Assembly: GCA_015075515.1 (NCBI GenBank)
Contig: JABTUE010000001.1
Span: 868,001 to 932,000 of the forward strand
Origin: Planctomycetota bacterium
GTDB lineage: Bacteria; Planctomycetota; UBA8742; UBA2392
DNA: 64,000 bases
Direction of reading: 5' to 3'
Under the pieces are notes generated by a model. The model was given only the letters and a program-made list of their open reading frames with translations, ran no database searches and was not told the origin of the DNA. Below, piece after piece: positions 11,496-61,383 of the stretch (position 1 is the stretch's first letter; each line of letters opens with the position of its first letter). A program made the position numbers and the translations under genes.

Positions 11496-11738
11496 TCACC
11501 TTCTTGGAAACGTCACTTGGATTGTATCAGCAAACGATCCACGACGGGGCTTCCTATCAACTTCGATTTCTCCATTCTCAAGGAGCTGACCTAGCACAGT
11601 TTTGTAGTTCTTAGCGATGTACTTACGATCCTCGCTGTGTGCCTCATAGATCTCACGCATTGTGAGGGTTCTTCCAGCGAAATCCATAAGCAACATCTCT
11701 CTCAGCTCATCCAAAGGTCGATTTAGAGGCTGTTTCAA
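11496..11738 (-). pseudogene. tcmP: tcmP 3' fragment (C-terminal winged-helix part), cut off by IS
   Basis: An 80-codon open frame whose first codons (MKQP) come from the IS terminal repeat. True host sequence starts at 11725. It encodes LDELREMLLMDFAGRTLTMR and continues to IQVTFPRR, which matches the C-terminal segment expected of three-Cys-motif partner proteins. Joined to the 5' fragment across a single TTA, it continues in the same frame. The combined gene would be 1122 nt (373 residues). The stop TGA lies 3 nt before the DUF5131 start. Confidence 0.8.
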
Positions 11739-11743
11739 AACCA
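11726..11743. repeat. Left terminal inverted repeat of the IS
   Basis: 18 bp beginning GAGGCTGTTTC. It is the exact reverse complement of 12612-12629 and is flanked outside by TTA. Confidence 0.95.
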
Positions 11744-11806
11744 GTAAAGTTGGCTTGGGAGGCTGGCCGATAGGTTTGGCATAGGTCCATTAACCTGGAG
11801 AATGCC

Positions 11807-12609
11807 ATGCCTCGACCCTTGGTCAGCGATGAACTTTGGAGCGTCGTCCAACCCCTGCTTCCCCCCGAACGTCCCAAACCAAAGGGCGGGCGGCCCGTTG
11901 CCGATCCCCGTGCCTGTTTGCTGGGCATCCTCTTTGTGCTCAAGTCCGGCGGGGCCTGGAACAGCATCCCGGCCGAGCTTGGAGCCGCTAGCCCGGCCAC
12001 CTGCTGGCGACGCTTCAAGGACTGGACCAAAGCCGGCATCTGGCAGACCATCTGGAAGCTTTCACTGGCCAGGCTCAACAGGCAGGGCAAGATTGACCTC
12101 TCCCGCGCTGTTGCCGACAGCGTCTCCATGCGTGCGGTTTTTGGGGGGCCCACACCGGCCCGAACCCGACCGACCGTGCCAAGCAAGGCTGCAAGCACCA
12201 CCTGATCACCGACGCCAACGGCGTGCCGCTGGCGCACTTCCTCACGGGCGCCAACGTGCCGGACGGGCACCTCGCGCTGCCCTTGCTGCACGCCATCCCG
12301 CCGATTCGCGGCCGTGCGGGACCACCGATCTGCCGGCCCGAGTACTACCTTGCGGATCGCGGCTACGGATGGGAGTGGAACATCATTCGGGTCAAGGCCA
12401 TGGGCGTGAAGTCTCTGCTGGCAAGGCCCGGAGACAACACCCACGGCAGCGGGCTGGGTAAACTGCGGTACGTGGTGGAGCGCACGATCCCGTGGTTCAA
12501 GGCCTGGCGCAGGTTGCGCGTGTGTTACGAGAAGACGCCTCTGAGCCTGATCGGGTTTCATACCCTCGCCGCCGCCATGATCTGCTTCAACAAGGCATTA
12601 CGGAGTTAG
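11807..12609 (+). CDS. IS5-family DDE transposase, expressed by -1 frameshift
   Basis: The first frame (11807-12205) encodes the helix-turn-helix half, MPRPLVSDELWSVVQPLLP onward, to the first catalytic Asp in VADSVSM. It stops at 12205. Shifting -1 in the tract T5G6 (12138-12148) continues as GAHTGPNPTDRAKQGCKHH through LADRGYG (second Asp) and YVVERTIPWF (Glu) to the stop at 12607-12609. All DDE residues are present across the join, giving about 267 residues. Programmed frameshifting or transcriptional slippage is usual in this subgroup. A plain inactivating indel cannot be excluded. Confidence 0.88.
12138..12148 (+). promoter_or_regulatory. Slippery tract for transposase frameshift
   Basis: TTTTTGGGGGG lies exactly where the homologous reading must change from the first frame to the -1 frame. 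Either -1 ribosomal slippage at the G run or transcriptional slippage on the T/G homopolymers would fuse the two halves. Confidence 0.6.
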
Positions 12610-13524
12610 AATGGTTTTGAAACAGCCTCTTAGCTGAAACAACAGCTGCTGGCGGGTGTTCATGGCCGGTGAAAACGTGAACGAGGGGACACCCTGATCG
12701 TCTGATGAACTGTACCGCGCCATGATTTCCTTCATGACGTCATAGCCTTTGAAGTGCTTAGTCACGAGGACCAGATGGTGTTTTGTCCGCTTCCCCGTTT
12801 CATCCTTGAAGCAAAACGGCAAGACAAAGCGTTTCTGCTTCTTATCGAAGTTCTTAAGAGCCAGACTTAGGTCGTTGACGATCGTGGCCTCCCGTTCCAG
12901 CGGCGACATTGGCTCCAAATCATCTCGAAGACTGCGCGCGCGGTCCTCACCAAAGAGCGCGCACATGTGTTCATGAACCAAGGGGTTGTTGAGCCCCGCG
13001 TTGATTCGCGCGTAGTTGAAGAAAAAGATGCAATCGCACCCCCAGCTCTTGATGAACGAATTTACGAGCCGAAGCGTGAGACCTCTGTAGCCCCACGGAT
13101 CCACAAACGCGAGCAAAGGTATCGTGTTGATGCGTTCAAAGTCAGCAGCAATCTCGTCGCCGACCTCTTTATGCCAGACATACGGCTTGTGTTTCAGGTT
13201 GTTGATGCCGGGCAGTTCATCAATCGCCGATTGAAGTGACTTCACATTCTCCTCGTCCTTGTCGTTGAAGATCGCTAGCAGTCGTTCGGCATAGATAGGC
13301 TTCTTTATCGCCCGCTGCAAAACCCTGATTGGCGTTGAGATCGCGCCAGACTTGTATCGACCGGGTCCGGCAAACAAGTCAACGTAGCCAATCCGCTTCT
13401 CATGCTGCCAGCGGTTTTGGGTCGCCGTTACGATGCCAGCCCAGGTGTCAAAGTACTTCTCAACGATTTCGGCTTTGATTTGCGACTGCACTGTGGTTTC
13501 TTCGAAGAACGAGTTGTCAACCAT
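12598..13524 (-). pseudogene. tcmP: tcmP 5' fragment: three-Cys-motif partner protein, IS-interrupted
   Basis: TcmP proteins are encoded beside DUF5131 proteins. They look like Rossmann methyltransferases, but the reaction is unknown. Visible landmarks are YFDTWAGIV, YVDLFAGPGRY (nucleotide-binding-like loop), LAFVDPWGYRGL and CDCIFFFNYARIN. Host sequence runs from the ATG at 13524 to RQQLLFQL at 12630. The last twelve codons come from the IS end before a stop, so the C-terminal winged helix (11496-11725) is lost. Base composition is visibly less GC-rich than the surrounding genes, which together with the IS suggests acquired DNA. A truncated product could still be made. Confidence 0.82.
12612..12629. 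repeat. Right terminal inverted repeat of the IS
   Basis: 18 bp ending GAAACAGCCTC. It is an exact inverted copy of the left end and is followed by the TTA duplication at 12630-12632. Confidence 0.95.
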
Positions 13525-15129: not shown

Positions 15130-15360
15130 TCAACCGTCGCTGCCAATGGCCTGAACGGGGCACTGGGCCGCGGCGTCCTGGCACTGGGTCTTTTCTTCGT
15201 CGTTTTCGGGCTGTTTGTAAACCACGTCGTGGGTGCCGTCTTCGCTTTCACGGAAGTTGTTGGGCGCAAGCTGAGGGCACAGGCCGCAGAAAATGCAGCT
15301 CTTGTCCACGTACCAGGCCCCGGGCACGTTGTCTTCCCATCGTTCGTTCGGGTCAGGCAT
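15130..15360 (-). CDS. Small [4Fe-4S] ferredoxin
   Basis: 76 residues. Cluster ligands are C22, C25 and C28 in CIFCGLCPQLAP plus C67 in QCPVQAI. C60 is a further cysteine, as in monocluster Thermotoga-type ferredoxins where it can form a disulfide. It would act as a cytoplasmic low-potential electron carrier; the partner is not evident. A GGAG site precedes the ATG. It is followed by its own terminator, so it is probably monocistronic. The acidic C-terminal half is typical. Confidence 0.9.
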   Translation of the reverse strand: MPDPNERWEDNVPGAWYVDKSCIFCGLCPQLAPNNFRESEDGTHDVVYKQPENDEEKTQCQDAAAQCPVQAIGSDG

Positions 15361-15496
15361 CTTGGTCTCCTGCGGGCGTTTCCGCCGCCCGCGGGCATAG
15401 TAGACTGATTCTGTCCGTTATTCTACTGGCTGGCACCTGTGCAAGGCCGGCGAAGGATACAAACCCGGCGCAACACCAAAAGGGCCAAGGAGAAAC

Positions 15497-15832
15497 ATGG
15501 TTCGCGACGTGACAAAGGAAGAGCTTCAGGCGGCACTGGCCGAGGGGCGGGTTTTTGCCCTCTACGACAACCGGGGCGAGGGCAGCTATGCCGCGCGCCA
15601 CATCAAGGGCGCGCGCTGGTTGTCCGTGCCTGACGCCGCGGCGGGCAAGGGGCTGCCCGCCGACAAGGGCGCGCTGCTGGTGTTTTACTGAGCTGGCTAT
15701 TCGTGAAACGCATCCACCAAGGCGGCCCGTGCGGTCGCGGCCTTGGGATACACCAACCTGTGGGATTATCGCGGCGGCATCGCCGAGTGGTACGAATCCG
15801 GCCTGCCGGTGGAAGGCACCATGTCGGGGTAG
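15497..15832 (+). CDS. Rhodanese-domain protein with two in-frame UGA codons (probable selenoprotein)
   Basis: 112 codons including UGA at codons 65 (15689-15691) and 70 (15704-15706), ending at TAG 15830-15832. The N-half is rhodanese-like (FALYDNRGEGSYAARHIKGA). Reading through gives LLVFY-U-AGYS-U-NASTKAA then GYTNLWDYRGGIAEWYESG. Cysteine homologues have CxGxxCNAxTKAA here, so both UGAs fall exactly on the catalytic-loop cysteines. The frame continues without other stops to a complete fold, and AAGGAG precedes the ATG. It would be a sulfur- or selenium-transfer/redox enzyme with a U-x4-U pair. A conventional reading would call a 64-codon fragment. Decay is the alternative, but two stops only at cysteines are hard to explain that way. 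Confidence 0.8.
15717..15746 (+). promoter_or_regulatory. Candidate bacterial SECIS hairpin
   Basis: CCAAGG/CCTTGG outer stem, 4-nt 5' bulge, CCGTG/CGCGG inner stem (one G-U) and a CGGU apical loop. It begins 10 nt after the second UGA, with the loop about 25 nt from it, which is within the 16-37 nt usual for bacterial SECIS elements. The loop region contains GGUC, as in the E. coli fdhF element. It is farther (about 40 nt) from the first UGA, so how that codon would be decoded is unclear. Confidence 0.5.
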
Positions 15833-60927: not shown

Positions 60928-61383
60928 GGAACACCCCGTGTCCGGTGCGGCAGGCCCGGCCCCTACTGTCAACCGCGGGCCTGTGCCCGTCAACCGGGTG
61001 ACCGCAACGCGGGCCGGCGCGTGCCGCCGTCAACGGTGGTTAAACGAGCTTGGGCCGCGCGCTCGGCGTCAGCCCAAGATCTTTTCAGCGAACCGCGCAT
61101 GCCGTTGGCCGGACGGTTTGGTGCACCCTTTATGCAAGGTGGGTGGCCGGAAGGCGGGTCAGGATTTCCCCCGACAGTTAAGGAGGGCATATCCGTTCAC
61201 ACCCGACCTGGGCCTCCCCGAGCACATTCATCGGCGCCGCAAACTTGTTGTCCGCCTGACGAACACAGCAGTAGGCCGCAACATTGTAGTGCCCGCCTCC
61301 GCCGGGGCAAGCCGAACCGGAGGCGGCCAATCCGGCTGGGGTTCTGATGCACGAAAACAACGGCGCCGGCCCGGACTTTGCCG
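60928..61383. other. 456-bp gap without a supported gene
   Basis: Upstream of the 60927 start and beyond the stop of the 61384 gene. Contains an AAGGAGGG ribosome-site-like string at about 61180-61187 without a matching start codon, and a hairpin at 61293-61326. No RNA gene recognised. Confidence 0.5.
61293..61326 (-). terminator. Possible terminator of the 61384-63773 gene cluster
   Basis: 9-bp stem CCGCCTCCG/CGGAGGCGG with 16-nt loop, about 60 nt past the stop at 61384. No U-tract. Confidence 0.4.

Follow-up and report, generated by a model that had tools for sequence, protein, structure and literature searches.

The window, i.e., the whole 64,000-nt stretch of Planctomycetota DNA analysed here, carries on its forward strand (15497..15832) a short gene which likely encodes a stand-alone rhodanese with selenocysteine (Sec) at both active-loop residues, 65 and 70. 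One shared SECIS-like hairpin is predicted to serve the two in-frame UGA codons, and we propose that the enzyme performs ferredoxin-linked redox chemistry on sulfane sulfur. We put the probability of this overall reading at roughly 0.8. Sec decoding of the UGAs is very likely, and we infer from the sequence that selenium is incorporated at both positions. The ferredoxin-fed chemistry, taken on its own, is tentative, and we think it somewhat more apt to be wrong than right.

With TGA read as U, the frame (15497-15829) spans 111 residues and is closed by a TAG at 15830-15832. Within it, TGA occurs only at codon 65 (UGA-1, 15689..15691) and codon 70 (UGA-2, 15704..15706), both on the forward strand. 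An AAGGAG located 4 nt 5' of the ATG (15487..15492, + strand) is the likely ribosome-binding site, judging from its sequence and from the upstream contexts of the orthologs. When Cys is placed at the UGA sites, residues 6-100 match the Pfam Rhodanese family (PF00581) at 52 bits, against a gathering score of 22.2. The translation and the Pfam match thus bear out the initial annotation of this DNA, which described the two UGAs as the sole interruptions of a rhodanese frame. It also placed them where homologues have Cys, and this is what the solved protein BH2092 (3nhv) has, with Cys aligned at both UGA sites (YCWGPACNGATKAA). The top-scoring solved match, 6mxv, has Cys at the first UGA site only.

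The 111-residue protein is predicted to adopt a rhodanese fold. An AlphaFold2 model built from a 16-row alignment (C for U) gave a pLDDT of 95.6, and the 50 matches listed in a Foldseek comparison with the PDB were mostly rhodanese domains. Residue 65 directly follows strand 61-64 in this model, and residue 70 comes just before helix 72-82. UGA-1 is therefore predicted to put Sec at the catalytic Cys position of rhodaneses, the first residue of the active loop, and UGA-2 to put Sec at the end of the same loop. Since both UGAs are likely Sec codons, standard annotation retains only the first 64 of the 111 residues. This truncation had been anticipated, and it is indeed what a protein collection search returned: seven of its eight matches are 64-residue truncations (the window's own among them), and the remaining match is a rhodanese of 176 aa with 33% identity.

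We compared the gene across 199 genomes, i.e., the window's own and its relatives, nearly all from the same phylum, in which the family is sampled by 16 genomes from 6 genera. Each of the 16 family genomes has an ortholog in which both positions are UGA; Cys is absent from the two sites throughout, and no further in-frame stop occurs before the gene end (the third TGA counted in G002 is its terminal codon). UGA at both codons in every one of these genomes is not chance. Identity to the window's protein is 57-79% for the 15 other orthologs, and the active loop follows a single consensus, FYU-[AS]-G-Y-[STAD]-U-[ND]-[AS]-S-T, in all 16. Scanning named genomes with the family alignment gave 19 loci, of which 14 are in Planctomycetota metagenome-assembled genomes (56-77% identity) and five are distant rhodaneses (28-36% identity) without UGA in the loop. 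The U-x4-U orthologs come from a single family, and all 14 that belong to a named record are MAGs. Some rhodanese match (E up to 0.001) is present in 124 of the 199 genomes, and no two-TGA rhodanese outside the family was among the matches listed.

A mixed arrangement, C-x4-U, with Cys at the first site and UGA at the second, also exists. G013 has a tandem rhodanese pair (L031) made of a C-x4-U paralogue and the U-x4-U gene, and distant rhodaneses in G129, G158 and G151 have the C-x4-U arrangement. In G129 (L045) and G158 (L078), the C-x4-U rhodanese domain and a glutathione peroxidase domain form one fusion protein, a hint that the loop pair may have a redox role (peroxide or thiol chemistry). 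A 31-row rhodanese tree could not tell which of C-x4-U and U-x4-U came first: it gave two changes to the double-UGA state, one change in 7% of bootstrap trees, and its long branches were flagged. Two further genes, L081 (G097) and L083 (G144), appear by eye to join a rhodanese domain to a downstream MoeB-like part; each has one UGA at the catalytic site of the rhodanese and another, also in frame, within the MoeB-like part.

The conserved neighbour of the gene is a divergent one, encoding a 76-aa single-cluster ferredoxin (Fer4_13; 15130..15360, - strand). All 16 family genomes have this ferredoxin upstream of the rhodanese, adjacent or one gene away, with 78-93% identity in the 15 other genomes (for L032, over 68 of 76 residues). 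The distance between the two genes is 133-290 bp in 12 genomes; a DUF302-like gene lies between them in three (L026, L027, L029 in G012, G006, G009; one was scanned), and the C-x4-U paralogue lies between ferredoxin and U-x4-U rhodanese in one. MurA and RluD also neighbour the rhodanese in the window, but neither is beside it in any of the 15 other genomes within 1.5-3 kb. The ferredoxin is the predicted electron-transfer partner of the rhodanese and would be its electron donor. Elsewhere in the window are a 6S RNA (61086-61277, - strand, 68.3 bits) and two ORFs side by side, of 284 and 308 aa, for which Pfam gave no match (11707-12561 and 12598-13524, both - strand); PADLOC found nothing.

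The intergenic region shared by the two genes contains an imperfect palindrome, ATAGTAGAC-N7-GTCCGTTAT (15397..15421), which is a candidate operator of the Rrf2 type. The consensus is ATAGTAGAC-N7-GTCCACTAT, from which the window's copy departs by two mismatches. With arms chosen after viewing the sequences, the palindrome is present at 14 or more of 18 positions in 12 of the 16 orthologous regions and missing in the other four. Its core, GAC-N7-GTCC, matches the RisR-like Rrf2 pattern (which also has AT-rich flanks), and PMC9973013 gives the same core for RisR sites in the Myxococcus isc and suf promoters. The window's genome has five matches to Rrf2 genes. A search of the window's genome that attempted to tie the predicted operator to isc/suf genes allowed up to 2 mismatches and gave no second site, whereas a reversed control pattern gave three. 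As only the window's own site was found, the connection to an Rrf2 regulator comes from the likeness of the motifs, and we offer it as a lead only.

For the chemistry, we propose the following steps. Sec65 would be the rhodanese nucleophile, taking a sulfane sulfur from thiosulfate, a persulfide or a polysulfide to form a seleno-persulfide. Sec70 would be the resolving residue: its attack on the seleno-persulfide would free sulfide or persulfide and leave a 65-70 diselenide, which electrons from the neighbouring ferredoxin would then re-reduce. The protein would therefore be a redox sulfane-sulfur reductase or transferase, not a plain thiosulfate:cyanide sulfurtransferase. The full combination, i.e., one SECIS for two UGAs 15 nt apart plus an active-loop diselenide reduced by a dedicated divergent ferredoxin, making a selenium-based sulfane-sulfur reductase, is speculative, and we consider it doubtful as a whole.

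Sec decoding requires its own machinery, and the window's genome (3.87 Mb, 5 contigs, 91.7% complete) encodes it. The tRNA-Sec scores 73 bits and has the anticodon tca (ARAGORN), and three protein genes exceed their cut-offs: selA (544.9 bits), selB (315.9 bits in a scan without the C-terminal domains; open frame of 676 aa) and selD (392 bits; with an in-frame UGA of its own). All 16 family genomes likewise have tRNA-Sec (best matches 69-75 bits) and selA over cut-off. The initial annotation had taken both UGAs for Sec codons, a claim that would have been in trouble if selB or selC were missing or if relatives had stops outside the two Cys positions. With selA, selB, tRNA-Sec and selD all found, and no other stop before the gene end in any of the 16 family members, the claim is supported. 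As for selD (L017), its UGA is near the start (HGAGUGCK), and a GGU-loop hairpin lies ~27 nt 3' of that UGA, seen in a 40-nt fold only. Across the wider set, 138 of the 199 genomes have selA over cut-off, so Sec use looks widespread in the window's phylum, to which nearly all of them belong.

This machinery also bears on what the enzyme handles. Rhodaneses can carry perselenide and supply SelD in vitro, and the protein might accordingly serve selenium rather than sulfur metabolism, with a perselenide on Sec65 being passed to SelD. SelD is encoded in the window's genome, and every one of the 16 gene-bearing genomes has selA and tRNA-Sec, as such a role would have it. However, selA, selB and selD are located elsewhere in the window's genome, and of the 16 family genomes 15 have selA on a different contig from the rhodanese, while in the remaining one (G014) it is 1.5 Mb off. 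Moreover, 122 genomes outside the family (138 minus 16) have selA, yet no two-TGA rhodanese was among the matches listed there. We therefore regard a selenium-delivery role as unlikely, though it is the best placed of the alternatives to the sulfur-handling double-Sec enzyme.

Synonymous conservation was examined in 26 four-fold-degenerate columns in codons -11 to +41 (counted from UGA-1) across the 16 genomes. Exactly four of these columns are fully invariant in all 16, and they are consecutive, at codons +11 to +14 (15722-15733), which read GCG GCC CGT GYG; the exceptions, a single AGT and a single CTG, encode different residues. Column shuffling gives p=0.0003 for such a run, a value that ignores shared ancestry and applies to a block seen before the test. 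The neighbouring ferredoxin gene has no invariant column among its 29 (15 of 16 genomes). The block coincides with a SECIS-like hairpin, CGGCC[CGUGC]GGUCG (15723..15737, + strand), whose consensus across the orthologs is CGGCC[CGUGY]GGYCG and whose apical loop begins 21 nt beyond UGA-2 and 36 nt beyond UGA-1.

The published bacterial SECIS model, as given in a 2026 review (PMC13188914), has its loop 16-37 nt after the UGA and a G among the first two bases of that loop; we applied these two properties together with an MFE of at most -7.5 kcal/mol. In loop sequence and spacing, the hairpin agrees with the model for both UGAs, UGA-1 being at the far edge of the range. With 21 and 36 nt both inside 16-37 nt, one element probably serves both codons. 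We also sought a separate SECIS for UGA-1 in codons +1 to +10, where no run of codons is conserved at synonymous sites beyond expectation: the peak is 0.76 (0.56 expected) at Gly codon +2, and the hairpins that some folds draw there are not common to all sequences.

Pairing and folding support the hairpin to differing degrees. Its core is paired in 97.6% of cells (17 sequences), with a modest result in the shuffle control for core pairs (28 of 500). There is one compensatory change, G-C to C-G, in the G013 C-x4-U paralogue, whose SECIS-like loop is also 21 nt from its second-site UGA. In folds starting at UGA-2, 11 of the 16 sequences have the hairpin in their MFE structure at 31 and 36 nt, six at 45 nt and five at 60 nt, rising to 12-13 once the first 10-13 nt are omitted. 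The isolated core reaches -7.5 kcal/mol in only eight of the 16. In the 45-nt fold of the window's sequence, the pairs closing the loop have a probability of 0.08, and the fold z-score is only -1.26. The shared SECIS is a prediction drawn from the single block of constraint; the fold energies are mixed, and RNAalifold did not choose the hairpin over 140 columns of the wider region.

The spacing matters for a second alternative, in which only UGA-2 is decoded efficiently and UGA-1 acts mostly as a terminator, i.e., a selenium-dependent regulatory stop with a 64-residue fragment as the main product. The loop is 21 nt from UGA-2 and, at 36 nt from UGA-1, near the 37-nt limit, and relatives with Cys first and UGA second exist (the G013 paralogue, G129, G158 and G151), both of which suit this idea. 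Against it, UGA-1 is fixed at the catalytic position in all 16 genomes, and a 64-residue fragment ends before the catalytic residue and so would be no enzyme. The codons 3' of the UGAs are also, by sequence comparison, under purifying selection: mean pN/pS is 0.28 for codons +6 to +40 (minus the hairpin core, +11 to +15) versus 0.30 for codons -11 to -1. We consider a regulatory stop improbable, slightly more so than selenium delivery.

Two in-frame stops in one short gene could also suggest a pseudogene, a sequencing error or a local stop-codon accident, which is rejected because the orthologs refute it: the same two codons recur in 16 genomes of 6 genera with 3' halves that are intact and constrained, in line with the initial argument that decay would need two hits exactly on Cys positions. 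If UGA had been reassigned throughout the genome (e.g., to Trp or Gly), two in-frame UGAs would equally be read through, but this is just as implausible and was rejected on prfB and UGA stops. The window's genome has prfB (439.7 bits), and UGA is the first stop after the rhodanese domain in 8 of the 16 orthologs, so UGA is very likely still a stop; it also ends 7 of the 19 long window ORFs inspected (some of which are uncertain genes), both sites are Cys in 3nhv, and the anticodon-tca tRNA is tRNA-Sec.

How new, then, is the double-Sec rhodanese? The initial annotation was right that rhodanese-like selenoproteins are known, but it named no U-x4-U form, and one is already on record. A table in the 2026 review (PMC13188914, citing Haft and Tolstoy 2025) has TsoB (NF045694), a rhodanese/DsbD-fusion-like selenoprotein listed as rhodanese-like form 5, with two Sec in the motif UxxxxU, so the motif as such is already known. 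We found no stand-alone U-x4-U rhodanese in searches of an open-access library and of NCBIfam. What appears new is therefore the stand-alone form, its fixation across a family, one invariant hairpin predicted to serve both UGAs, and the pairing with a ferredoxin.

TsoB is nonetheless the closest known system. It shares with the window's protein a rhodanese domain, two Sec and the UxxxxU motif, a likeness at the level of the motif pattern in that table, and NF045694 is the protein's best NCBIfam match. This match reaches 54.1 bits versus a cut-off of 805 and covers positions 46-159 of 572. The TsoB profile includes a DsbD-like part over its 572 positions, whereas the window's protein has 111 aa and its partner gene encodes a ferredoxin. 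None of the 199 genomes has TsoB over cut-off, and the TsoB profile matches listed in them lie within positions 129-572, which leaves out most of the rhodanese part. Each of the 16 orthologs has a match to NF045694 and to NF041203 (E up to 0.001). The latter is the rhodanese-related (seleno)protein LYCAU, form 3 with motif CxU in the same table (PMC13188914), which resembles the window's protein in its single rhodanese domain, similar length (profile 126) and Sec in the motif. However, it has one Sec, in CxU rather than U-x4-U, and the window's protein scores 42 bits against its cut-off of 115.

Forms 1, 2 and 4, listed there with UxxS, UxxG and UxxG (PMC13188914), also combine a rhodanese domain with Sec, but theirs is a single Sec without a second one five residues on. 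Single-domain Cys rhodaneses (BH2092, 3nhv; Alr3790, 3ilm; E. coli GlpE, 1gmx) have the same fold as predicted here, with Cys in place of Sec, and BH2092 also has a similar active loop, with Cys at both Sec sites. Set beside these systems, the gene would add to the rhodanese selenoproteins a conserved stand-alone double-Sec enzyme, which annotation shortens. It would also be a small natural case in which to ask whether a single bacterial SECIS suffices for two UGAs, 21 and 36 nt from its loop. Finally, with the ferredoxin retained as partner throughout the family, sulfane sulfur may follow a new redox route, one that would involve two small soluble proteins.
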